From Candidatus Marsarchaeota G1 archaeon BE_D (GTDB lineage: Archaea > Thermoproteota > Thermoprotei_A > Marsarchaeales > Marsarchaeaceae), in assembly GCA_003019595.1 (NCBI GenBank), contig NEXD01000004.1:1-48402 (forward strand): a DNA stretch of 48,402 nt, read 5' to 3'. The position numbers and the translations under genes were made by a program. The stretch's first letter is position 1. Every line of letters starts with the position of its first letter. The notes under the pieces were generated by a model that was not told the origin of the DNA, did no database searches, and was given only the letters and a program-made list of their open reading frames with translations. Shown here piece by piece: positions 21,441 through 32,973 of this stretch.

Positions 21441-22201
21441 ATTCACTGAATATTCCAAATGTTGATAGTGTAAGACTTCAGAGTATTGCTCGAAGACTAA
21501 AAGAATTTGCGCAAGGAAAAAAACTAGTGCTCGGTGTAAGCGGAGGCGTCGACTCTTCAGTTACGCTTGCAATTTCAGTTGAAGCTGTCGGAAAAGACAG
21601 CGTTCTGGCTTTAATAATGCCGGATTCAAGGGTAACACCAGTTGAAGACATAGAAGACGCAAAAAATCTTGTGACAAACTTTGGCGTGCAGTTTAAAGAG
21701 CACAAAATAGACGCAATTGTTGATCAGTTTTCAAAAGAGTTGGGCGCAAAGGATGAACGTTCAATTGGAAACATTAGAGCAAGATGCAGAATGACCCTTT
21801 TGTATTATTATGCAAATGTGTTAAACGGTATTGTCGTTGGAACGGGTGATCGTTCAGAAATTCTTCTTGGTTATTTCACAAAGTATGGTGACGGTGGGGT
21901 CGACGTATTGCCAATAGGTTCTCTTTACAAAACACAAGTAAGAGCCGCCGCTATTCTTCTTGGCTTACCAGAACGCATAGCAAAAAAGCCTAGTAGTCCA
22001 AGGTTATGGGCTGGACAAACCGCTGAATCGGAATTGGGTTTGAGTTACGAAATCGCAGACAAAATACTTTATGGTTTAACCGAATTAGGCTTGTCTAAAG
22101 AACAGCTTATCTCATTGGGCTTTCTTGAGAAGGATGTACAAAGAGTAAAGGAACTAATAGAAAAGTCTTTTCACAAAAGACAGATGCCCGTGGTGCTTTA
22201 A
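21437..22201 (+). CDS. nadE: NAD+ synthetase (ammonia-dependent)
   Basis: 254 residues. The PP-loop is SGGVDSS at 35-41. Other family marks are MPDSRVTP, NIRARCRMTLLYYYAN, GTGDRSEILLGYFTKYGDGGVD and PIGSLYKTQVRAAA. It adenylates and amidates nicotinate adenine dinucleotide to NAD+. There is no glutaminase domain, so ammonia is the likely nitrogen donor. ATG 21437 has AAGGT about 6 nt upstream. It is divergent from the queC pair. Confidence 0.95.
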   Translation: MNSLNIPNVDSVRLQSIARRLKEFAQGKKLVLGVSGGVDSSVTLAISVEAVGKDSVLALIMPDSRVTPVEDIEDAKNLVTNFGVQFKEHKIDAIVDQFSKELGAKDERSIGNIRARCRMTLLYYYANVLNGIVVGTGDRSEILLGYFTKYGDGGVDVLPIGSLYKTQVRAAAILLGLPERIAKKPSSPRLWAGQTAESELGLSYEIADKILYGLTELGLSKEQLISLGFLEKDVQRVKELIEKSFHKRQMPVVL

Positions 22202-22211
22202 ATCAAGTTCA

Positions 22212-22664
22212 TCACTCGTTCTTTTTTAGCCAATCAAGATTCTCTTTAGTTTTGAACACGAGCAATCCCGTGTTTTTATCTTTGACTTTTATCAACTCTG
22301 TTCCTGCTACTTCAAGTATGTAAACCTCAGCGGCGTATCCAACATACGCTTCGACAAGGTGACCACCAAAACATTCGAAATTTTTGTTGGACATGCTGGC
22401 GTGTAAATGTGCCACTCTTTTTCCTTCTTCGTCTTTTGCGAGAGAGCCAATACAAGAAAGCAGTTCAATATCTCCTTCAAAAGTGTTCTTTACGTACTCT
22501 TTTCCATTATAATATGCGACAACAGCTTTGCTAAACGTTCCTATTGCGTTGACCACACCAAAGTCGATGTTGTTTTCATCCGCAATCTTTATGACTTCTT
22601 GAATAAAGTTTGTGCCAGGTTTTAAACCTTCTACGACAATTCTTCCTAATGCTCCAACTGTCAT
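22212..22664 (-). CDS. PPC domain (DUF296) protein
   Basis: 150 residues covering one PPC/DUF296 domain: GRIVVEGLKPGTNFIQEVIKIADENNIDFGVVNAIGTF, then AHLHASMSNKNFECFGGHLVEAYVGYAAEVYILEV with the conserved His-containing HLHAS and GGHL motifs. Such domains form trimers; in plants they accompany AT-hooks, while prokaryotic stand-alone forms have no firmly established role. The gene converges on nadE with a 10-nt gap and is divergent from the ACT-domain gene. Confidence 0.88.
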   Translation of the reverse strand: MTVGALGRIVVEGLKPGTNFIQEVIKIADENNIDFGVVNAIGTFSKAVVAYYNGKEYVKNTFEGDIELLSCIGSLAKDEEGKRVAHLHASMSNKNFECFGGHLVEAYVGYAAEVYILEVAGTELIKVKDKNTGLLVFKTKENLDWLKKNE

Positions 22665-22781
22665 TTTCTATGCTAATTGTTAACATCAATTTTTTCTTTA
22701 CTCTTAAGTCGCAAAAACCTCGTTGCATTATAGTTGCATCTAGCAAAACGCTTAAGAAATCTTTTATGCCAATATTACTTC

Positions 22782-23249
22782 ATGCGATTTCGTGTAACGC
22801 TGGCATTGCTCGATAAGCCTGGCCAATTGCTGAGGGCTTTGGACCCAATTGCAAGAAACGGTGGTAACATAATCTCTATTTTTCATGAAAGAGAAAGGAG
22901 AGCTGGCGATTACGTGCCTGTAAGCCTCGTTATAGACTTTTCCAGCAATGAAAGCTTTAATCAAGCGTTTGAGGGTATAAAAAGAGCTGGCATAGAAATC
23001 ATAGAATCAGAACAAATTTTTGAAAAGAAAAATTTGACATGTCTTTTTGTTGGGTTAGACCCGCAAAACGCTATCAAAATTGGCATAAATGGCGCTGAAA
23101 TAAAAGCCATAGAAGCAATTAAACCGCTTTCAAACAAGGGCTGTGTCAAAATTGAATTCTCTATAATTCCAGAGAGATTAGAAGAAGTGCTAGAAGAATT
23201 GAGAAAGTTCGCGGAACAATCAAACGCGCTTCTTATTCCTTCGATTTAG
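22782..23249 (+). CDS. ACT-domain protein, probable regulator of homoserine dehydrogenase
   Basis: 155 residues from ATG 22782, with CTTAAGAAA about 26 nt upstream; the longer frame from 22734 is unlikely. The first 75 residues form an ACT domain (FRVTLALLDKPGQLLRALDPIARNGGNIISIFHER), and the second half may be another (CVKIEFSIIPERLEEVLEELRKF). ACT domains bind amino acids. Homoserine dehydrogenase follows after 13 nt and lacks an ACT domain itself, so this protein probably senses threonine, methionine or isoleucine for it (inference). Confidence 0.8.
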   Translation: MRFRVTLALLDKPGQLLRALDPIARNGGNIISIFHERERRAGDYVPVSLVIDFSSNESFNQAFEGIKRAGIEIIESEQIFEKKNLTCLFVGLDPQNAIKIGINGAEIKAIEAIKPLSNKGCVKIEFSIIPERLEEVLEELRKFAEQSNALLIPSI

Positions 23250-23262
23250 AGGTGTGTGTCAA

Positions 23263-24264
23263 TTGGACGTGGCTATACTAGGGTTTGGTTTTCTTGGTAA
23301 AAACCTTGTCAAATATTTGACTATCAGATGGGACGAGCTTAAGCGAATCGACCCTAATTTCAAAGTGACAGCAATAGCGAATAGTAAGGGATATATTTAT
23401 GATTCAAACGGAATAGATCTTTTTCAACTAAGCGAGACTCAAGATTTAACAAGCTACTCCAAAGCCCCTTTTTGTTTTGAACAAGCGGCTACACTTATAG
23501 AAAGAGAGTTTTTCGATTGTGTGTTCGAGCTCACACCAACGAATGTCAAAAACGGTGAACCAGGATTATCCCATATCAGAAAAAGTTTAAGCCGAGGAAT
23601 GAATGTCATAACGGCAAACAAAGGCCCGCTCGTCTTGGCTTATAACGAGCTTGTTTCTTTAGCTAAAACAAGCGATTGTTTATTGCTTTTTGAAGCGACT
23701 GTCGCTGGTGCCGTACCCGTTTTTTCTCTTGTAAGAGAAAGCTTGCAAGGGGATAAGGTGATTAGAATTCAGGGAATTCTTAATGGAACCACGAACTATA
23801 TACTTTCGAGAATGTATTATGAAGGAGTGAGTTTTGATATTGCGCTCAGGGAAGCCCAAGAAAAAGGCTTGACTGAAAGAGACTTTGCGTATGACATCGA
23901 CGGCATAGACGCTGCTTGTAAAGTAGTAATTCTTGCTAACGCCATAATGGGACGAAAGGCTGTGCTAAGTGATGTGAAAATCAGTGGGATTCGGGGTATA
24001 AATGAAGAAGCGATTTCATTGGCCAAAAAGTCTGGTTATGCGATAAAGCTTATTGGTGAGGTGGAAAAAGATTTGCGTGTATCACCAAGACTTGTACCAC
24101 TAAATCATCCACTTTGTGTGAACGGAACGTTGAATTCAGTTCAATTCATATGTGATATAGCAGGAGAAATAACGCTTGTTGGGCATGGAAGTGGTAAAGA
24201 AACTGTCTCTGCACTTCTTAACGACCTTTATACAACACTACGCGCTCAAGCCATTAAGAGCTAA
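23263..24264 (+). CDS. hom: Homoserine dehydrogenase
   Basis: About 333 residues from TTG 23263, preceded by GAGGTG (23249-23254) at good spacing; GTG 23254 is possible but would overlap that site. The nucleotide-binding motif is VAILGFGFLGKNLVKYL. Family marks are GMNVITANKGPLVLAYNEL, FEATVAGAVPVFSLVRESL, GILNGTTNYILSRM and the D-rich DFAYDIDGIDAACKVVILAN. It reduces aspartate semialdehyde to homoserine on the way to threonine, methionine and isoleucine. It sits directly before the ilv/leu operon. Confidence 0.94.
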   Translation: MDVAILGFGFLGKNLVKYLTIRWDELKRIDPNFKVTAIANSKGYIYDSNGIDLFQLSETQDLTSYSKAPFCFEQAATLIEREFFDCVFELTPTNVKNGEPGLSHIRKSLSRGMNVITANKGPLVLAYNELVSLAKTSDCLLLFEATVAGAVPVFSLVRESLQGDKVIRIQGILNGTTNYILSRMYYEGVSFDIALREAQEKGLTERDFAYDIDGIDAACKVVILANAIMGRKAVLSDVKISGIRGINEEAISLAKKSGYAIKLIGEVEKDLRVSPRLVPLNHPLCVNGTLNSVQFICDIAGEITLVGHGSGKETVSALLNDLYTTLRAQAIKS

Positions 24265-24322
24265 TATCGCGATACGGAAACCATTATTCTCCTTGCCAAG
24301 ATCAGCAGTCTTTTGCGAAATA

Positions 24323-24330
24323 TTTAAATA
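24323..24330 (+). promoter_or_regulatory. TATA element of the ilvB operon
   Basis: TTTAAATA within AAATATTTAAATAG, preceded by CGAAA as a possible BRE. Its centre is about 27 nt before ATG 24354, so the mRNA should begin at or next to the first codon of the leader peptide ORF. Confidence 0.7.
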
Positions 24331-24353
24331 GATGTTTGTTTATTTCTTGAACT

Positions 24354-24425
24354 ATGTCAAGAACAACCAGCATAGCCCAGAACATCATTTTGATTGTACT
24401 AGGGCTACTGGTTGTTCTAGTATAG
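24354..24425 (+). CDS. Branched-chain-rich leader peptide upstream of ilvB
   Basis: A 23-codon ORF from ATG 24354 to TAG 24423-24425. After an N-terminal MSRTTSIAQ the rest reads NIILIVLGLLVVLV. Twelve of the last 13 residues are Ile, Leu or Val (3 Ile, 5 Leu, 4 Val). The codons used are ATC, ATT, TTG, GTA, CTA, CTG and GTT. The TATA box spacing predicts a leaderless start. It precedes the first gene of branched-chain synthesis, as leader peptides do in bacterial ilv attenuators, and overlaps a strong inverted repeat. A short membrane peptide is the main alternative explanation for the hydrophobic run. Confidence 0.65.
   Translation: MSRTTSIAQNIILIVLGLLVVLV
24360..24418 (+). promoter_or_regulatory. 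Stem-loop inside the ilvB leader ORF
   Basis: AGAACAACCAG (24360-24370) pairs with CTGGTTGTTCT (24408-24418), and TAGCCC (24373-24378) pairs with GGGCTA (24402-24407). Together they make a 17-bp helix with a 2-nt bulge (24371-24372) and a 23-nt loop. All of it lies within the leader peptide codons, so a translating ribosome would open it and a stalled one would decide which arm is free. Confidence 0.7.
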
Positions 24426-24452
24426 CCCTCTTCAGATTTTTGGGGAGGGCTT
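24423..24452 (+). promoter_or_regulatory. Second stem-loop, masking the GGAGG before ilvB
   Basis: AGCCCTC (24424-24430) pairs with GAGGGCT (24445-24451) around a 14-nt loop containing TTTTT. The right arm includes GGAGG (24444-24448), the best Shine-Dalgarno sequence in the ilvB leader. The left arm TAGCCCT (24423-24429) can instead pair with AGGGCTA (24401-24407), part of the first stem. The two folds exclude each other. Confidence 0.55.
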
Positions 24453-24476
24453 GTGGGGGTGTTGTGTTTGGTTGTC

Positions 24477-26180
24477 ATGTCAGGTTCTCAGGCCCTTATT
24501 ACCGCTTTAGAACAACACAAAGTAAAGCATGTATTCGGTATCCCTGGCGGGGCGAATCTACCAATTTACGATTCACTTTTTGATTCAGATATGCATCACA
24601 TTCTTGCAAGACATGAGCAAATAGCCGCCCATATGGCCGACGGATACGCGCGTGCTTCAGGAAAAGCTGGTGTGTGCATTGCGACCTCTGGCCCTGGAGC
24701 AACAAACTTTGTTACGGGTCTCGCCACAGCGTACGCAGATTCTTCAGCAGTTATCGCGATAACAGGACAGGTTCCCAAAGCGATGATTGGAAGAGACGCT
24801 TTTCAAGAAACGGATATTTTGGGTGTTGTCGCTCCCATAACAAAATACGCTCTTCAACCTTTAAAAGCGGAAGACATTCCAAAAGCCGTCGCAAAGGCTT
24901 TTTATATTGCCACAACTGGAAGACCCGGTCCTGTTCTTTTAGACATACCAAAGGACGTTCAGCAAGAAATGGCCGACATTGAGTTCCCCGAGCGTGTTGA
25001 CGTAGAAGGATATTGTGCCGAACACCCAATCGATGAACTTGAAATAAAAAGAGCCACAGAAATATTGCTTAATGCGAAAAAACCCGTTTTACTTGGAGGA
25101 GGTGGAGTACGCATTTCTGGTGCGTTTCAAGCTTTTCGTGCTATTGCCGAACTTCTTATGGCCCCCGTTGTCACCACCCTACAAGGAAAAGGAGTTTTTC
25201 CTGAAGATCATCCACTTTCACTGGGAGCTATTGGGATGCACGGCAGGGCGGAAGCCAACCGGGTTGTTGCCGAGTGTGACGCACTGCTAGCAGTAGGCGT
25301 AAGATTTTCAGATAGAACCACAGGCGTGTTTTCTGAATTTTGTAAAGATGCGAAAATTATTCACATAGACACTGACCCCTCAGAATTCAATAAAAACAAA
25401 CTTGTTGATGTGCACATACTTGGAGACGCAAACAAAGCTCTTACACTCCTTTATCAATCTCTTGTTCAAAGAATATCACAAAACCCAGAAAATCCTTGGT
25501 TGAAAAGAGTGAATGAAATCAGGGAATCACTAAGAAACATTCCAGCTTATTCAGAAATCCCACAAGAGCTATCTGGGCCAAACATTGTAAAGAGAATGAG
25601 GGAAGTTCTGCCTCGTAATGCTATCCTCACCACAGGTGTTGGAAGACACCAGATGTGGTGTGAGATTCACTATAAAGTGTTAGAACCAAGAACATGGATA
25701 ACATCAACTGGTTTGGGCACGATGGGATTTGGCCTTCCTGCTGCAATTGGCGCAAAACTTGCACGTCCAGAAGTTCCAGTTGTGGACTTTGACGGTGATG
25801 GTAGCTTTGTAATGACAGAGAGCGCGCTTGCGACCGCGGTAGAAGAAGGAATTCCTGTAATTTCGGTGATACTTAATGACGGAAGCCTTGGAATGGTTGA
25901 ACAGTGGCAAAGACTCATGTACAACAGGCGATACATAGGAGTTAAGCTTAGACGAAATCCAGATTTTGTCAAACTTGCCGAAGCTTATGGCGCAGAAGGT
26001 ATAAGGGTGGACTCACTCGATGAGTTTGAAAAGGCTCTTAGAAGCGCACTAAAAAATGATTTTCCAACGGTTATAGAAGTACCAGTTTCTTCAGAGCACG
26101 ACGTGTTTCCATTCATGCCACCTGGTAAGACGCTTGGAGAAACGCTTTATGGGCCAAAAAAGGAGGCGTCAATTTTTTGA
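24477..26180 (+). CDS. ilvB: Acetolactate synthase, large catalytic subunit
   Basis: 567 residues from ATG 24477. GTG 24453, GTG 24459 and two TTG codons are in-frame alternatives nearer to GGAGG at 24444-24448; homologues begin close to the MSGSQALI of the ATG. The ThDP-activating glutamate is Glu47 in HILARHEQIAAHMADGYARA. The ThDP/Mg motif runs GDGSFVMTESALATA to ILNDGSLGM. The FAD region and GRPGPVLLDIPKDVQ are typical. It condenses two pyruvates, or pyruvate and 2-oxobutyrate, to start valine, leucine and isoleucine synthesis. The next gene starts within its stop codon (TTGA). Confidence 0.95.
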   Translation: MSGSQALITALEQHKVKHVFGIPGGANLPIYDSLFDSDMHHILARHEQIAAHMADGYARASGKAGVCIATSGPGATNFVTGLATAYADSSAVIAITGQVPKAMIGRDAFQETDILGVVAPITKYALQPLKAEDIPKAVAKAFYIATTGRPGPVLLDIPKDVQQEMADIEFPERVDVEGYCAEHPIDELEIKRATEILLNAKKPVLLGGGGVRISGAFQAFRAIAELLMAPVVTTLQGKGVFPEDHPLSLGAIGMHGRAEANRVVAECDALLAVGVRFSDRTTGVFSEFCKDAKIIHIDTDPSEFNKNKLVDVHILGDANKALTLLYQSLVQRISQNPENPWLKRVNEIRESLRNIPAYSEIPQELSGPNIVKRMREVLPRNAILTTGVGRHQMWCEIHYKVLEPRTWITSTGLGTMGFGLPAAIGAKLARPEVPVVDFDGDGSFVMTESALATAVEEGIPVISVILNDGSLGMVEQWQRLMYNRRYIGVKLRRNPDFVKLAEAYGAEGIRVDSLDEFEKALRSALKNDFPTVIEVPVSSEHDVFPFMPPGKTLGETLYGPKKEASIF

Positions 26181-26638
26181 AGTTGCTTGTTGCAAAAATT
26201 TCAGACGATCCCTATACTTTGCTCAAGGTCGTGCGTTACATTACACAACTTCCTGTCAATCTTCAATCTTTTAATTTACAAAAAATTGGAAAGATTCTAC
26301 ATTTAGAAGCTTTTATAGAAGGCGATGATTCCGTGTTGCAGCTTTTGCACAAAAGAGTCAAAAAAGTGATAGGTGTGCTCGAAGTCTGTGTGTTAGACGA
26401 AAAAGAGTTTGAAATAAAAAAAGTTGTTGTTTTGAACACCAAAAAAGAAGACTTGGTCAAAACTTACGAGTTTGAGCATTATAGGATTCTGACAAAAAAC
26501 TTGGACGGTTCAAAAATTCAGCTTTTGGATAACGATAAAAGAATTGCGCCCCTTCTTGCATCTCAAGATGTGAATTTGATTTCAATCTCTAGTTTTTTTG
26601 TTTCTAAAAATGGAGGAAATGAAAATGAGAAGAATTAG
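26177..26638 (+). CDS. ilvN: Acetolactate synthase small (regulatory) subunit, divergent
   Basis: 153 residues from TTG 26177, overlapping the ilvB stop by 4 nt. The N-terminal 75 residues are a diverged ACT domain (KLLVAKISDDPYTLLKVVRYITQLPVNLQSFNLQKIGK, then EAFIEGDDSVLQLLHKRVKKVIGVLEV). The C-terminal part is shorter and less conserved than in bacterial IlvH. Position directly after ilvB supports the regulatory-subunit call, with valine as the usual effector. It overlaps leuA by 14 nt. Confidence 0.82.
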   Translation: MKLLVAKISDDPYTLLKVVRYITQLPVNLQSFNLQKIGKILHLEAFIEGDDSVLQLLHKRVKKVIGVLEVCVLDEKEFEIKKVVVLNTKKEDLVKTYEFEHYRILTKNLDGSKIQLLDNDKRIAPLLASQDVNLISISSFFVSKNGGNENEKN

Positions 26639-28139
26639 AGTTTTTGACACAACTTTAAGAGACGGCGAGCAAACACCTGGCGTGTCGCTCACACCACAAG
26701 AGAAACTTACGATAGCAGAAGCTCTTGATAAGCTTGGGGTGGACGTGATAGAAGGTGGATTTCCGATAAGCTCCAAAAGTGAAGAAGAAGCGTTGCGTGC
26801 TATGTGTCAAGCGGGCTTTAGAGCGGAGGTATGCGGACTTGCTAGAGCCAACAAGGAAGACATTGAACGTGTGGTAAACTGTGGTGCACGCACAGTACAC
26901 GTTTTTCTTGCGTCGTCTGACATTCATCTAAAGCACAAGCTCAAGATGTCAAGAGACGAAATGTTAAAGCGTTGTGATGAGATGATCAGGTATGCCAAAA
27001 GCTTTGGTGTTAAAGTCGAATTTTCGGCCGAAGATTCTACAAGAACTGACATAGATTTCTTTAAGAAAGTTGTAAAAGTGGCTTATGAAGCAGGAGCGGA
27101 CAGATTTGACATTGCGGACACTGTTGGTGTGGCTACACCAGAAAAAATGGCGGATTATGTAAGGGCGGCGAAATCCGCCGCCCCTATTCTTGTGAGCGTT
27201 CACTGTCATAACGATTTTGGACTGGCAGTCGCCAATAGTCTTTCTGCAGTAGTGGCAGGAGCAGAACAAGCCCATGTAACAGTAAACGGAATCGGTGAAA
27301 GGGCTGGAAACGCCTCATTAGAAGAGTTTGTTATGGCGTGTAAAAGTCTTTATGGTTTTGACGTAAACATCAATACCAAATTGCTGTATGACGTGTCAGT
27401 GCTCGTTTCACGTCTTACAGGCGTTATCGTTCAACCAAACAAGGCAATCGTTGGCAGAAACTCATTCGGCCACGAGTCAGGAATACACACGCACGGTATT
27501 CTCTCAAACCCTCTTACATATGAGCCTTTTGACCCATCACTGGTAGGAAGAAGCCGCTGGTTCCAAGCAGGAAAACACTCTGGAAGACATGGCATTTTTG
27601 AGCAAGTAAAAAGCATGGGATTTGAGCCTACGCGCGAACAGTTGGATGAAATAGTAAAGAGGGTAAAGGCGCTCGGTGACCAAGGAATTACAGTCACAGA
27701 AAGCGACCTCTTTCAGATAGCCTCACAAGTAGTTGGCGAATCTGAGTTAAACAGCTTGCTTTTAGAGTTAAAAGACTTTGAAGTTTCGACAGGACTTGGC
27801 AGACCTGCTAGGGTGCAATTAAGATTGGTTTATAACGGGAAAGAGACATTGCTTTCAGGCATGGGCAAGAACTCAATACAAGCTTGTTTCGATGCGTTAA
27901 AGAGTTTTATAGGTGATAGAATTGAAGATATAAAAAGCTATACCATCAAAGCTTTGGTGACTGACGTGGGTGTTGACGTCACCGCTGAATTTGTGCACAA
28001 AAACGGTGAATTTTCATCTAGTCGTGGTGAAAGTGATGAATTGGTCAGCGCTAGCATACAAGCAATTGTTTCGGCGTTAAATCTTTCTATAATCAAAGCT
28101 TTAAGAAATCGTCCTCTCAAAACGAGGCAAAGCGGATGA
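26625..28139 (+). CDS. leuA: 2-isopropylmalate synthase family enzyme
   Basis: 504 residues from ATG 26625, with GGAGG at 26612-26616 as ribosome site. The TIM-barrel start is IRVFDTTLRDGEQTPGVSLT. Metal ligands are in VSVHCHNDFGLAVANSL and the loop NGIGERAGNASLEE is conserved. The C-terminal regulatory domain (from about residue 380) is present. It condenses acetyl-CoA with 2-oxoisovalerate. Archaeal citramalate synthase, which uses pyruvate, is very similar, so that role cannot be excluded from motifs alone. The end overlaps leuB by ATGA. Confidence 0.9.
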   Translation: MRRIRVFDTTLRDGEQTPGVSLTPQEKLTIAEALDKLGVDVIEGGFPISSKSEEEALRAMCQAGFRAEVCGLARANKEDIERVVNCGARTVHVFLASSDIHLKHKLKMSRDEMLKRCDEMIRYAKSFGVKVEFSAEDSTRTDIDFFKKVVKVAYEAGADRFDIADTVGVATPEKMADYVRAAKSAAPILVSVHCHNDFGLAVANSLSAVVAGAEQAHVTVNGIGERAGNASLEEFVMACKSLYGFDVNINTKLLYDVSVLVSRLTGVIVQPNKAIVGRNSFGHESGIHTHGILSNPLTYEPFDPSLVGRSRWFQAGKHSGRHGIFEQVKSMGFEPTREQLDEIVKRVKALGDQGITVTESDLFQIASQVVGESELNSLLLELKDFEVSTGLGRPARVQLRLVYNGKETLLSGMGKNSIQACFDALKSFIGDRIEDIKSYTIKALVTDVGVDVTAEFVHKNGEFSSSRGESDELVSASIQAIVSALNLSIIKALRNRPLKTRQSG

Positions 28140-29173
28140 ACAAATATTTAGTGGCCATAATGGAAGGAGATGGAATAGGACCGGAGATATCCAAAGTGGC
28201 TGTGGATGTACTTGAAACCTTGAATGAACTATTCGATTTAGGCATATCGCTCCAAAACGTGGAAGGTGGCGATGGTGCGCTAAAAAATTTCGGTAAAGCG
28301 CTTCCGCCTTATACCGTAGAAGTTTTGAAAAATTGCCACGCGTGTCTAAAGGCTCCAGTTGGCGAAAGCGCAGCGGATGTGATTGTCAAATTAAGACAAA
28401 TTTTTGATCTCTATGCGAACGTCAGACCATCTAGGGTTTTTCCTAGTGTGCGCGCGTTAAAGCCAAACATAGACTTAGTGATCGTACGAGAGAACACTGA
28501 GGATGTTTATAAAGGAGTTGAATTAGACTTGGGTGATGCTGTTGTCGCTTTGAGACCAATAACCAAAAAAGCTTGTGAAAGAATTGCGGAATACGCTTTT
28601 AACTTGGCTAAAACAAGAGCAAAGCGAAAAGTTACAGCAGTTCACAAGGCCAACGTGCTCAGAAAAAGCGATGGGCTGTTTCTTGAAACTTGTAGGCGCG
28701 TGGCCAAGCGTTATCAAGACATCAATTTCGATGACATGCTTGTTGACGCAGCAGCGATGAGCCTTATTCGTGACCCAGAAAGGTTTGACGTTATCGTCAC
28801 TACGAATCTTTACGGTGATATACTCTCTGATGAAGCGTCCCAAGTGGTAGGAGGATTAGGACTTGCGCCCTCTGCGAACATCGGTGAAAACTTTGCGATT
28901 TTTGAGCCTGTTCACGGCTCTGCGCCTGATATAGCTGGTAAGGGTATAGCGAACCCACTTGGAATGGTTTTAAGCGTTTCGATGATGCTAGACTGGTTCT
29001 TTACACGATTTTCTGATCAAAACTCTAAAAGCGCGTCAGAAGTTTTGGTGAGCGCGGTGTATTCCATTTTAAAAAAAGGCGTCAAAACTCCTGATTTAGG
29101 CGGAAATTACACGACGAATCAGGTGGGAGAAGAGTTGAAAAGAGAGCTAATCAGGCTTAGTAAACCCATGTGA
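28136..29173 (+). CDS. leuB: 3-isopropylmalate dehydrogenase
   Basis: 345 residues. It has MEGDGIGPEI, the substrate loop with LRQIFDLYANVRPSR, VIVRENTEDVYKGVE, the metal site TTNLYGDILSDEASQVVGGLGLAPSANIG, and EPVHGSAPDIAGKGIANPLG. The LRQIFDLYANVRP loop lacks the phosphate-binding serine context of isocitrate dehydrogenase, fitting isopropylmalate, or methylmalate if leuA is citramalate synthase. The ATGA overlap couples it to leuA. Its 3' end overlaps that of the convergent ilvE by 17 nt. Confidence 0.92.
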   Translation: MNKYLVAIMEGDGIGPEISKVAVDVLETLNELFDLGISLQNVEGGDGALKNFGKALPPYTVEVLKNCHACLKAPVGESAADVIVKLRQIFDLYANVRPSRVFPSVRALKPNIDLVIVRENTEDVYKGVELDLGDAVVALRPITKKACERIAEYAFNLAKTRAKRKVTAVHKANVLRKSDGLFLETCRRVAKRYQDINFDDMLVDAAAMSLIRDPERFDVIVTTNLYGDILSDEASQVVGGLGLAPSANIGENFAIFEPVHGSAPDIAGKGIANPLGMVLSVSMMLDWFFTRFSDQNSKSASEVLVSAVYSILKKGVKTPDLGGNYTTNQVGEELKRELIRLSKPM

Positions 29174-30098
29174 CCCAATCTTCATGACCTTTTACGCTCG
29201 ATTTGCCTGTCACAACAAGTTCGTACTTTTGCACGATTTTCTTTGTAATTGGACCAACTTCTCCATTACCCACTTTTTTTCTGTCAACTGACAAAACAGG
29301 AACAACACCTGCGGCGCTACCCGTAAGAAAGATTTCGTCAGCGTTGTAAAGCTCTGCTCTTGCGACCTCACGTTCAATTACGTTCAGTCTTTCTTCCGTT
29401 GCAATTTTGACCACTGTGTCCCTAGTTATTCCTTGTAATATGGACGAACTTATCGGAGGTGTTATAAGCGAATTGTTCTTAACCAAAAACACGTTTTCGC
29501 CAGTGCCCTCAGACACTTTTCCTTCAGCGTTTAACATTATCGCTTCATCATAGCCATTTCGTAGCGCTTCACGTTTTGCGAGAACAGAATTCACGTAATT
29601 GCCACATATTTTTGCGAGTGGTGGAGTGACAGGGTCGTAGAGTCTTGTCCAGCTTGAAACGCAAACATCAAGACCACTCTTTGAAAAATAGTGTCTAAAA
29701 GGAAAGGCGATTATCGCAGCTTCTATAGGATAATCTTTAAAACCCAAGTCTATTCCAGAATATCCCACGAACACAATTGGTCTAATGTAACAGTCTTCTT
29801 TTAAATCGTTCGCTTTAAGTAGATCAATACAAGCTTTTTCAAGTTCGTTCACATTGTAATCCAACTCTAAATCCAAAACTTTTGCAGACTCGTAAAGACG
29901 AATGATGTGATCATGTAATCTAAAAACAGCTAGGTTGTTATCAGCGGCAAACGCTCTGATTCCCTCAAACACGCCAGTCCCGTAGTGTAACGCGTGTGTC
30001 ATCACGTGGATCTTCGCTTGATCCCATTCCACAATTTTTCCATTCATCCAGATGTATTTACTCTTTTGAATTTGCGGTGTGATAGAGGCCTTTTGCAT
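29157..30098 (-). CDS. ilvE: Branched-chain amino acid aminotransferase
   Basis: 313 residues, fold-type IV PLP enzyme. The N-terminal motif is IWMNGKIVEWDQAKIHVMTHALHYGTGVFEGIRAF; the PLP lysine is Lys163 in PLAKICGNYVNSVLAKREAL; EGTGENVFLV and FLTGSAAGVVPV complete the family marks. It makes the final transamination to Val, Leu and Ile. GGAGG at 30106-30110 lies 7 nt before ATG 30098. It follows ilvC by 117 nt; CTAAAATAT in that gap could be its own TATA element, so it may be transcribed both with ilvC and separately. Confidence 0.95.
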   Translation of the reverse strand: MQKASITPQIQKSKYIWMNGKIVEWDQAKIHVMTHALHYGTGVFEGIRAFAADNNLAVFRLHDHIIRLYESAKVLDLELDYNVNELEKACIDLLKANDLKEDCYIRPIVFVGYSGIDLGFKDYPIEAAIIAFPFRHYFSKSGLDVCVSSWTRLYDPVTPPLAKICGNYVNSVLAKREALRNGYDEAIMLNAEGKVSEGTGENVFLVKNNSLITPPISSSILQGITRDTVVKIATEERLNVIEREVARAELYNADEIFLTGSAAGVVPVLSVDRKKVGNGEVGPITKKIVQKYELVVTGKSSVKGHEDWVTWVY

Positions 30099-30215
30099 CT
30101 TTTTCCCTCCTAGCTGGATACCGCTAACCGATTTTTCGGATATTTTAGTGTTTCGTTAAAAAATGTTTTAGCTTTATTCGCTTTTGAAAAGAGCTTTGTT
30201 TAACACAAACTTTTG

Positions 30216-31202
30216 TCACTTCCACATAAGCTCTCTTAATTCTTTTCCCACTTTTTCAATAGGGTGCTCTTCTAATTCGGCTAACATCTTTTCGAGTCCT
30301 TTTACACCTTCTTTTGAATAGAAAGATTGCCACTCCTTTGCAAACTCTCCGCTTTGAATGTCTGCCAAAACCCTTTTCATTGATTCTTTGACGTGCTCGT
30401 CTATTACCATGCCACCTCGTGTTAGTCCGCCATATCTTGCAGTTTCACTAACTCCTTGGTACATACCAGAAATTCCCTTTCTTTGGATAAGATCAACTAT
30501 CAGCTTTAGCTCGTGTAGGCACTCAAAGTAAGCAACCTCTGGCTGATAACCCGCCTCAATTAGCGTTTCAAACGCACTTCTAATTAGTCTGTCAACACCA
30601 CCACAAAGATCAACTTGTTCGCCAAACCAATCAGTCTCAACCTCCTCTTTGAAGGTTGTTTGTATTACACCAGCTCTTGTACAGCCTACCGCTTTTGCCA
30701 TTCCAAGCACCCTTTCCCATGCGCGACCCGTAAAATTTTGTTGAACCGCAACTAATGCAGGAACACCAAAGTTTTCAAGATAAAGCTCCCTCATTCTTTG
30801 GCCAGGCGCTTTTGGCGCTAGCATAATCACGTCAACCCATTCAGGCGGTTTTATCCAACCCCAATGTATTGCCGCACCATGAGAAAAACTAAGCGCTTGA
30901 CCTTTTTTCAAATATGGCTCGATTTGGTTTTTGTACACATTAGCTTGCTCCATATCAGGAATAAGTATGTGAATCACATCAGCGCGCTTTACCGCTTCAG
31001 GAATTTCAAAAACTGTGTGTCCGTCTTTTTGGGCAATTTCCCAGCTTTTTCCATCTTTTCGAAGACCCAGTATAACTTTAAGCCCAGAGTCCTTCATGTT
31101 GCACGCTTGGGCTCTGCCTTGAATTCCATAGCCTATCACCGCAAAAGTTTCGTTTTTAACACTTTCAAGGCTAACATCGCTATCTCGCCATATTTTTGCC
31201 AT
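30216..31202 (-). CDS. ilvC: Ketol-acid reductoisomerase, class I
   Basis: 328 residues from ATG 31202, preceded by GAGGAG; ATG 31229 is in frame but lies too close to the TATAAA at about 31238-31246. The nucleotide-binding motif is VIGYGIQGRAQACNMKDSG with cofactor loop LRKDGKSWEIA. Catalytic segments are LAPKAPGQRMRELY, EEVETDWFGEQVDLCGG, AYFECLHELKLIVDLI and SETARYGG. It rearranges and reduces acetolactate and acetohydroxybutyrate. ilvC and ilvD are transcribed divergently from a shared gap of about 110 nt. Confidence 0.95.
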   Translation of the reverse strand: MAKIWRDSDVSLESVKNETFAVIGYGIQGRAQACNMKDSGLKVILGLRKDGKSWEIAQKDGHTVFEIPEAVKRADVIHILIPDMEQANVYKNQIEPYLKKGQALSFSHGAAIHWGWIKPPEWVDVIMLAPKAPGQRMRELYLENFGVPALVAVQQNFTGRAWERVLGMAKAVGCTRAGVIQTTFKEEVETDWFGEQVDLCGGVDRLIRSAFETLIEAGYQPEVAYFECLHELKLIVDLIQRKGISGMYQGVSETARYGGLTRGGMVIDEHVKESMKRVLADIQSGEFAKEWQSFYSKEGVKGLEKMLAELEEHPIEKVGKELRELMWK

Positions 31203-31311
31203 TTGTAACTCCTCTTGGATATCATTCATTGTTTTTATAAATTTATTGATAACTTTATGCGTTTAGGTCATTTTTCAAAAACATAAATATAACGGCATGA
31301 TTTGTGAATTT
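31203..31311. promoter_or_regulatory. Divergent promoter region of ilvC and ilvD
   Basis: The gap holds TATA-like TTTATAAA reading towards ilvC (about 31238-31246) and ATAAATAT (31283-31290) reading towards ilvD, the latter about 26 nt before ATG 31312. No leader peptide or hairpin like that of ilvB is seen. Confidence 0.55.
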
Positions 31312-32973
31312 ATGAGATCCAAAGAATTTTACAGCGGCGTTGAACGCGCCCCTAACAGAGCGTTTCTAAAAGCCGTAGGACTGACAGATGAAGATCTAGA
31401 AAAACCACTACTTGGTGTTGCTGTTGCATGGAACGAAGCTGGTCCTTGTAACATTCACACCCTTAGCCTTGCTCAAGAAACAAAAAGGGGAATAGCCGAG
31501 GCGGGAGGTACACCACGACTTTTTGTAACGCCAGTGGTGATAGATGGCATTGCGATGGGCACAGAAGGCATGCGCTATTCTCTAATTAGCAGGGAGCTTA
31601 CTGCTAATACCATTGAGCTCACCGTGAACGCTCACGGTTACGATGGTTTTGCGGCGCTTTCAGGTTGTGATAAGACCACACCCGGTATGCTTATGGCAAT
31701 GGCACGGCTCAACATTCCGTCGATAATAATGTATTCGGGTACAACGCTTCCTGGTAACTTTAAGGGGAAACGTGTGGCAATAGGGGACGTATATGAGGCA
31801 GTTGGAGCTTACACCGCCGGTAGCCTTTCATTGGATGATCTTGTTTACCTCGAAAACCACGCAATTCCTACCGCTGGTGCTTGCGGAGGTCTTTATACGG
31901 CAAACACGATGGCTCTTATCACTGAAGCACTTGGTGTAGCTCTACCAGGTAGCGCGTCACCGCCAGCAGTGGACGCGGAAAGGCGTAAGTTCGCTTATCT
32001 TACTGGTAAAACGCTTTTGAAATTGATTGAAAACGGAATAAAACCGCGTGACGTTCTAACTTTTGAGGCTTTTGAAAACGCGATAACAGCGCTTATGGCT
32101 TCTGGGGGTTCTACTAATGCCGTTCTTCATTTACTTGCAGTAGCGCACGAAGCGGGCGTAAAACTCACGCTTGACGATTTTGAAAGAATAGGAAAAAAAG
32201 TTCCAGAAATAGTAGACATGAAACCAGCGGGTCGCTTCACCATGGCTGATCTTTACGAAGTAGGAGGAGTTCCACTGATTTTGAAAAAGTTGCTTAATGC
32301 GCATTTGCTTCACGGTAACGCGCTCACAGTTACTGGAAAAAGCCTACAGGAAAACCTGCGTGAGTATCAAATCCCGCAATTAACACAAGAGATCGTAAGA
32401 GATGTGAACGATCCGATTTACCCTTTAGGAGGAATAAAGATCTTAAAGGGAAGCTTGGCACCAGAAGGAGCGGTTGTAAAGGTTTCTGCCACAAAAAGAA
32501 AAACACACACAGGAAAAGCAAAAGTTTTCGATTCGGAAAAACAAGCCTTTCAGGCGGTTCTTAGCAAAGAAGTAAAGCCTGAAGAAATTGTAGTGATTAG
32601 ATACGAAGGCCCAAAGGGCGCCCCAGGAATGCCAGAGATGCTATCTGTGACTGCTGCGATCGTTGGCGAAGGATTAGCAGAAAGCGTGTCTTTGGTGACC
32701 GATGGTAGGTTTTCAGGTGCCACAAGGGGACTCATGGTTGGTCATGTATCACCAGAAGCGTTTGTAGGCGGTCCCATTGCACTCGTAGAAGACGGTGATA
32801 AAATAAGAATTGACACACAACTTGGTTTTCTTGATTTACTTGTTGATACCAACGAGCTTGAAAGAAGACGGAAAATCTGGGAACCCCCTAAGCGAAACTT
32901 TACAACTGGTTTGCTAGCACAGTACGCCTCGATGGTTTCATCCGCTTCTGAAGGTGCAGTGCTCAAGCCTTAA
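31312..32973 (+). CDS. ilvD: Dihydroxy-acid dehydratase
   Basis: 553 residues from ATG 31312, chosen because the TATA element predicts transcription starting there; ATG 31297 is in frame but would lie upstream of that start. Iron-sulfur ligands are in [17 protein letters not shown] and PTAGACGG. The C-terminal domain has [23 protein letters not shown]. It dehydrates dihydroxyisovalerate and dihydroxymethylvalerate in valine and isoleucine synthesis. Confidence 0.95.

Follow-up and report, generated by a model that had tools for sequence, protein, structure and literature searches.

A putative leader peptide for branched-chain amino acid supply ahead of ilvB in a Marsarchaeota genome and its relatives

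Introduction

In bacteria, ribosome-mediated attenuation is textbook knowledge and needs tight coupling of transcription and translation, and the leader peptides of the enterobacterial ilvGMEDA, ilvBN, leu, and his operons combine Shine-Dalgarno (SD) sites with intrinsic terminators. T-box riboswitches also report the supply of charged tRNA to amino-acid genes, by binding the tRNA directly and with no open reading frame (ORF). Here, a stretch of 48,402 nucleotides from Candidatus Marsarchaeota G1 archaeon BE_D (contig NEXD01000004.1, positions 1 to 48,402, forward strand; hereafter the window) is described, in which a 23-codon ORF (24354..24425, + strand) precedes ilvB. Judging from the sequence and its relatives, this ORF would be, with a probability of about 80%, a leader peptide by which the ribosome reports the supply of the branched-chain amino acids isoleucine, leucine, and valine (I/L/V). 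As in the enterobacterial leaders, a short ORF rich in the regulated amino acids lies between promoter and operon and is accompanied by possible alternative hairpins; unlike them, the window has no SD before the leader and no U-tract after it. With T-box riboswitches the locus would have the reporting of charged tRNA in common; however, it has an ORF and no T-box match in Rfam.

The closest known system is the ilvBNC operon of Corynebacterium glutamicum, whose leader peptide reportedly forms with no ribosome binding site (Morbach et al. 2000, cited in PMC13158618) and which has three overlapping hairpins, a proven terminator, and mutational data (PMC11857589). The window has the same type of operon and resembles this system, as reported, in lacking a ribosome binding site before the leader, the control codons there being Leu/Val; both have short overlapping alternatives, GCCC/GGGC in C. 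glutamicum and TAGCCC/AGGGCT in the window. In contrast to the bacterial system, the setting is one of archaeal RNA polymerase and a TATA promoter, the window has longer C-terminal I/L/V runs and no U-tract, and the archaeal leaders as a class have no conserved pairing between the second and third RNA segments. In mycobacteria, leaderless Cys-rich short ORFs (sORFs) serve as attenuators (Canestrari et al. 2020, as cited in PMC9031893). As described there, these leaderless polycysteine sORFs resemble the putatively (near-)leaderless leader of the window in being short ORFs where the sensed amino acid forms a run and which control the downstream operon, as is proposed for the window; they differ in sensing cysteine and in their bacterial host, the comparison covering features of the ORF. 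The first-pass annotation had regarded a leaderless leader peptide as a new variant, which is not right in general, both bacterial systems preceding it as far as these accounts describe them. Its claim of novelty within the Archaea held in the open literature searched, where no archaeal leader-peptide attenuator was found, subscription papers lying largely outside the search.

Results and Discussion

The leader ORF and its conservation

The leader ORF of the window starts with ATG at 24354 and stops with TAG at 24423-24425, its product being MSRTTSIAQNIILIVLGLLVVLV (ORF MSRTTSIAQNIILIVLGLLVVLV*), in which 12 of the 13 C-terminal residues are I/L/V. The proposed control codons are those for I/L/V, from approximately codon 11 to the end of the ORF. 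The TATA box of the leader/ilvB promoter (TTTAAATA, 24323..24330, + strand) has its first base 31 nt ahead of the A of the leader ATG. The 23-codon ORF, the TATA box, the I/L/V-rich end, and the position ahead of ilvB, all described in the first-pass annotation, were confirmed by the sequence; the distance of 52 nt given there from the leader stop to ilvB was measured as 51 nt to the ATG at 24477. An in-frame TTG at 24468 is the likelier start of ilvB, considering the comparison with relatives and the spacing of an SD-like GGGGGTG (24455..24461, + strand), 6 nt before this TTG.

A total of 192 ilvB upstream regions were retrieved after the phylum and the class Nitrososphaeria had been searched; the family identities (f numbers) are inferred, except for named contigs. 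The nearest IlvB in the genome collection belongs to Gagatemarchaeum-like Thaumarchaeota (67-71% identity), and all 11 Gagatemarchaeum-like loci with enough upstream sequence have a TATA-like box and a short ORF with an I/L/V-rich end, the sequence being otherwise different. After curation, leader-type ORFs (for example, MAGSNAATTVILQLRALLLLA, MLSTYSETTSLPVGLLLLVVLLD, MKLGGSASISSILLLVDLML, and MKVMSGCQPNIHLGLTVVVGLAPLVLVVV) were found in the corresponding position in no fewer than 108 upstream regions of ilvB, from about 20 families, mainly of the Nitrososphaeria (Thaumarchaeota), a count inflated by the inclusion of related genomes. They are present throughout the Nitrososphaeria-type families, including most of the regions examined in the large f16 and part of f52, and also in f1 (the family of the window), f47, f29, f55, and f76. 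In the upstream regions examined from other families, another gene often precedes ilvB within an operon, or no such leader is seen. The comparison of relatives that the first-pass annotation had proposed, carried out on these approximately 190 regions, gave a short ORF that is kept while its sequence changes and its I/L/V content stays constant. This comparison gives strong support to a leader peptide geared to the branched-chain amino acids.

Short ORFs are common, and a chance ORF in an AT-rich 5' untranslated region was considered on that ground. A rule that took account of position alone, accepting the first ATG at 26-42 nt behind a TATA-like hexamer and a length of 14-40 codons, gave an ORF with I/L/V in at least 50% of the last ten codons in 106 of 149 ilvB upstream regions (71%) and in 1.2% of dinucleotide shuffles; when it was applied to whole loci on both strands, the I/L/V-rich matches were almost exclusively the leaders. 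With this excess spread over about 20 families, the chance reading is already refuted and its probability is practically nil.

Composition of the peptides

Among 51 representatives, I/L/V make up 65% of the last 12 residues, and their share of I+L+V+F+M+A is 0.90 there compared with 0.66 elsewhere in the peptides. The apolar C-terminus and the conserved location could also suit a small hydrophobic membrane protein encoded beside ilvB, with no sensing function. However, the longest apolar run has a median of 6 and a maximum of 13 residues, and none of the 51 reaches 15, the approximate minimum for a transmembrane segment, which was rejected as a candidate; moreover, the last 12 residues include only 12 F, 3 M, and 0 W among 612 residues, and both sequence and length drift freely. 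The bias is thus one of codons for particular amino acids and not of hydrophobicity or of a membrane helix, and a membrane protein is very improbable. Within the alignable groups, the early leader codons vary equally at all three positions, and synonymous single-base changes overall number 63 against 44 expected, which indicates that composition and not sequence is kept.

Probable initiation without a Shine-Dalgarno site

There is no SD ahead of the leader ATG in the window, and SD-like motifs precede the leader ATG in 4 of the 51 representatives and ilvB in 33 of them. Among the 49 representatives having a TATA-like box, 47 have it 29-42 nt ahead of the leader ATG. This distance, together with the lack of an SD, fits a transcript that would have its 5' end at, or a few bases ahead of, the leader ATG, which would make the ORF (near-)leaderless. 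G002 and G004, of the same family as the window, have the TATA box approximately 50 nt upstream of the leader, and their leaders are for that reason probably not leaderless.

RNA structure and terminator-like sites

The first-pass annotation made no mention of RNA structure around the leader ORF, where the fold has z = -5.9. Four segments on the + strand are involved. Segment 1 (AGAACAACCAGcaTAGCCC, 24360..24378), defined by inverted repeats I1 and I7 and by the fold, has segment 2 as partner. For segment 2 (AGGGCTACTGGTTGTTCT, 24401..24418; I1, I7, I4, and direct repeat D1), the partner is either segment 1 or, by way of AGGGCTA, segment 3. Segment 3 (TAGCCCTC, 24423..24430; I4, I5, and direct repeat D2) starts with the leader stop and has segment 2 or 4 as partner, and segment 4 (GAGGGCT, 24445..24451; I5) pairs with segment 3 and has no U-tract after it. 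The 1:2 pairing comprises AGAACAACCAG (24360-24370) with CTGGTTGTTCT (24408-24418), 11 perfect bp, continued by TAGCCC (24373-24378) with GGGCTA (24402-24407); the 2:3 pairing joins AGGGCTA (24401-24407) to TAGCCCT (24423-24429), and the 3:4 pairing joins AGCCCTC (24424-24430) to GAGGGCT (24445-24451). Because TAGCCC and AGGGCT alternate in the window, each inner segment has two possible partners.

In 52 representatives, the folding energy lies below that of shuffles, with mean z values of -1.26 (p 1e-8) for the whole leader, -0.96 for the leader ORF (-1.00 when the codon order is shuffled), and -1.21 for the stop region. The ORF halves also pair better with their own partner than with those of other loci (z -1.28, p 3e-7), which extends the 1:2 pairing to the class; the 3:4 pairing is likewise significant class-wide. 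In 39 of 44 cases, the start of the 5' arm of the second hairpin falls in the interval from the last two codons to 12 nt past the stop, so that a ribosome at the stop would cover that arm. The anatomy is that of an attenuator, namely, I/L/V codons, nested hairpins, and a stop codon that the 5' arm of the second hairpin contains or adjoins. Little covariation is seen within families (0-6 two-sided pairs in each group), since the sequences are too alike within groups and unalignable between them.

The strong inverted repeats of the window and the significant folding would also be expected if only an RNA or DNA structure were conserved, such as an operator, a riboswitch, or a T-box-like element, with the ORF being incidental. 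This is improbable, as the stems are wholly different between families, yet the I/L/V content and the start position stay; Rfam, T-box included, gave no match in 22000-32000 even at E values up to 5.

A hairpin with a U-tract lies right behind the leader stop in 27 of 109 leaders, compared with 2.3 expected (about 12-fold), including six of six in f81 and twelve in f16. The textbook case is L284 (f76), with AGCGGCC-TCCTCTCTC-GGGCCGCTTTTTT, that is, AGCGGCC, TCCTCTCTC, GGGCCGC, and TTTTTT, followed by the SD of ilvB.

Proposed mechanism and its output

Here it is proposed that the translating ribosome would signal to the ilvB-(ilvN)-leuA-leuB operon how much charged tRNA for Leu, Ile, and Val is available. 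From the geometry of the promoter, the ribosome would load at once on the (near-)leaderless transcript, without an SD. When Leu, Ile, and Val are ample, it would reach the stop and depart, hairpins 1:2 (in the ORF) and 3:4 (at the stop) would form, and the expression of ilvB would drop. When they are short, it would stall at the codons for I/L/V; those of the window occupy the stretch between segments 1 and 2 and extend into segment 2. With a stall at codons 11-16, segment 1 would be partly covered, segment 2 would be free for segment 3, 3:4 would be blocked, and ilvB would be expressed. Translation of the ORF, stalling, and the direction of control are inferred from the sequence, and a premature end of transcription seems the reasonably probable output.

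The same sensor could instead govern the translation of ilvB, through coupling, re-initiation, or exposure of its ribosome site, an option that is rather unlikely. The window hairpin has no U-tract, 7 nt of segment 1 are complementary to the ilvB start (24363-24369/24469-24475), and in f70 the SD of ilvB comes directly after the leader stop. However, in 50 representatives the leader ORF and the ilvB ribosome site show no enriched pairing (mean z 0.18 and -0.09), the predicted exposure of that site is independent of the position of the ribosome, and terminator-like sites are enriched class-wide, as given above. A general mechanism in which the leader sequesters the ribosome site of ilvB was rejected, as neither the pairing nor the exposure computation supports it; likewise, segment 1 shows no enriched pairing with the region past the leader stop across the class. 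Frameshifting or read-through from the leader into ilvB was also discarded, since ilvB occupies any of the three frames with respect to the leader, and in 48 of 51 representatives the frame of ilvB is closed; the frame shared by the two in the window is due to chance.

Several observations weigh against a ribosome-sensing leader peptide of the attenuator type. The 3:4 hairpin of the window has no U-tract and its leader no terminator-like site, and the 2:3 pairing shows no class-wide enrichment (mean z 0.08; -0.04). Simple folding gives no systematic change in the exposure of the ilvB ribosome site with ribosome position. Within groups, 27 changes at I/L/V codons leave the I/L/V/M set and 20 stay. 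No clear leader was found in several Nitrososphaeraceae-like and a few Nitrosopumilaceae-like genomes, and the related genomes within the leader counts inflate them, about 20 families still being represented. A class-wide 2:3 antiterminator was accordingly rejected; the textbook antiterminator is not a conserved part, and the switch may work differently elsewhere in the class. As no intrinsic terminator lies between leader and ilvB, the window is filed as probably working like an attenuator and not as a proven transcription attenuator. The branched-chain sensor of the first-pass annotation is partly supported: its I/L/V leader peptide strongly, by the conserved type of ORF and its constant composition, whereas ribosome stalling and a response to starvation are predictions.

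Operon genes and origin of the cassette

The leader is followed on the + strand by ilvB for the acetolactate synthase large subunit (24468..26180, TIGR00118, 716 bits; start TTG 24468 or ATG 24477), a small ORF in the ilvN position between ilvB and leuA (26177..26638), leuA for 2-isopropylmalate synthase (26598..28139, NF002085/TIGR02090 above cut-off, with the gene order kept in relatives), and leuB for isopropylmalate dehydrogenase (28136..29173, TIGR02088 above cut-off). The earlier reading of these genes as ilvB-ilvN-leuA-leuB is borne out by NCBIfam for IlvB, LeuA, and LeuB, whereas the presumed ilvN has only an ACT_5 match below cut-off (E 0.042). It is probably an ACT-type regulatory subunit; the gap between ilvB and leuA is of comparable size in the relatives. 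Directly upstream of the leader, the window encodes an ACT-domain protein and then homoserine dehydrogenase (22734-24264), which end approximately 60 nt before the TATA box.

The IlvB of the window nests in Gagatemarchaeum-like Nitrososphaeria (support of the enclosing clade 98/96), apart from G002 and G004. The alanyl-tRNA synthetase encoded on the same contig (42248-44962) has 60% identity to its own family (G002/G004) and about 36% to Nitrososphaeria, and this grouping ruled out a mis-binned contig. Considering the different affinities of the two proteins and the gene order ilvB-small ORF-leuA, common to the window and its Gagatemarchaeum-like relatives, the ilv/leu cassette (24453-29173) and the leader were most likely acquired horizontally from a Nitrososphaeria relative.

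Other short upstream ORFs

In the same class, the region upstream of trpE has a TATA box and then ATG GGT G(A/G)N NNN (C/G/T)TT TGG; trpE lies in the +1 frame and resumes precisely at (C/G/T)TT-TGG, as TTT GGN, approximately 40-85 nt upstream of the TrpE match. The geometry of this junction is that of the frameshift site of bacterial prfB (RF2, a UGA sensor). At L348 (f80), L350 (f81), and L386 (f72), a stop codon immediately precedes TTT GGN in the trpE frame, and this frame lacks a start codon; at L371 (f79) it has no start before -33. The motif is also present in L343, L345, L346, L349, L351-L353, L356-L362, L364-L366, L372-L379, L381-L384, and L387-L390. At many other trpE loci a GTG in the trpE frame could serve as the start, so only L348, L350, L386, and L371, from four families, argue for a frameshift by themselves. 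Programmed +1 frameshifting at the Trp codon is accordingly a candidate for the production of TrpE; no match for it was found in the literature, and, if true, it would be a Trp sensor built like the UGA sensor of RF2.

The hisG loci L335, L325, L320, L321, L331, L329, and L323 have short leaders with His in the place of Trp after a GGTGA-like motif (MGDYVHKL*, MRDYLHTR*, GDSVHKR.., GDRLHSR.., and GDRLHW..). A distinct TATA-proximal mini-ORF, conserved in sequence and with L-Q-V near its end (MIGGYTLQV*, MRDGTLQV*, MSGGTLQVH*, and MELQVR*), lies ahead of ilvB in the Sulfolobales-like L007, L008, L010-L012, L014, L015, and L017, in f12 (L019, L020, and L022), in f43 (L138), and in f37 (L311); an almost unvarying CTCCAAGT is common to these loci and points to a possible RNA motif or arrest peptide. 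In L025, L026, and L028, tandem mini-ORFs, each with its own SD (GGAGGTGGTC..ATGTCAAACGTCCC.. and ..ATGTCAAACATT..) and encoding MSNVP. and MSNI., lie about 60-130 nt upstream of ilvB. Many f16 (Nitrosopumilaceae-like) loci, such as L186, L154, and L241, have a second mini-ORF, for example ATGGAGAAAGATTTGATTGAATAA, with a conserved TTAAAATTATGG, between the leader and ilvB, about 45 nt upstream of ilvB and with its stop adjoining the ilvB start.

Implications

A tentative wider reading is that leader-peptide control could be an old, class-wide archaeal system with its own output and without a conserved antiterminator. The presence or absence of a ribosome on the leaderless ORF would then decide whether the polymerase stops at the leader stop codon, by termination of the U-tract or the aCPSF1/FttA type, and sensing would have been extended to Trp (a +1 frameshift in trpE at a hungry UGG) and to His. 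The device apparently travels with its operon between archaeal classes. The leader suggests how Nitrososphaeria tune the synthesis of branched-chain amino acids and, being conserved in most of the sampled members of this class, which has cultivated ammonia oxidisers, makes the coupling of transcription and translation in Archaea directly testable.
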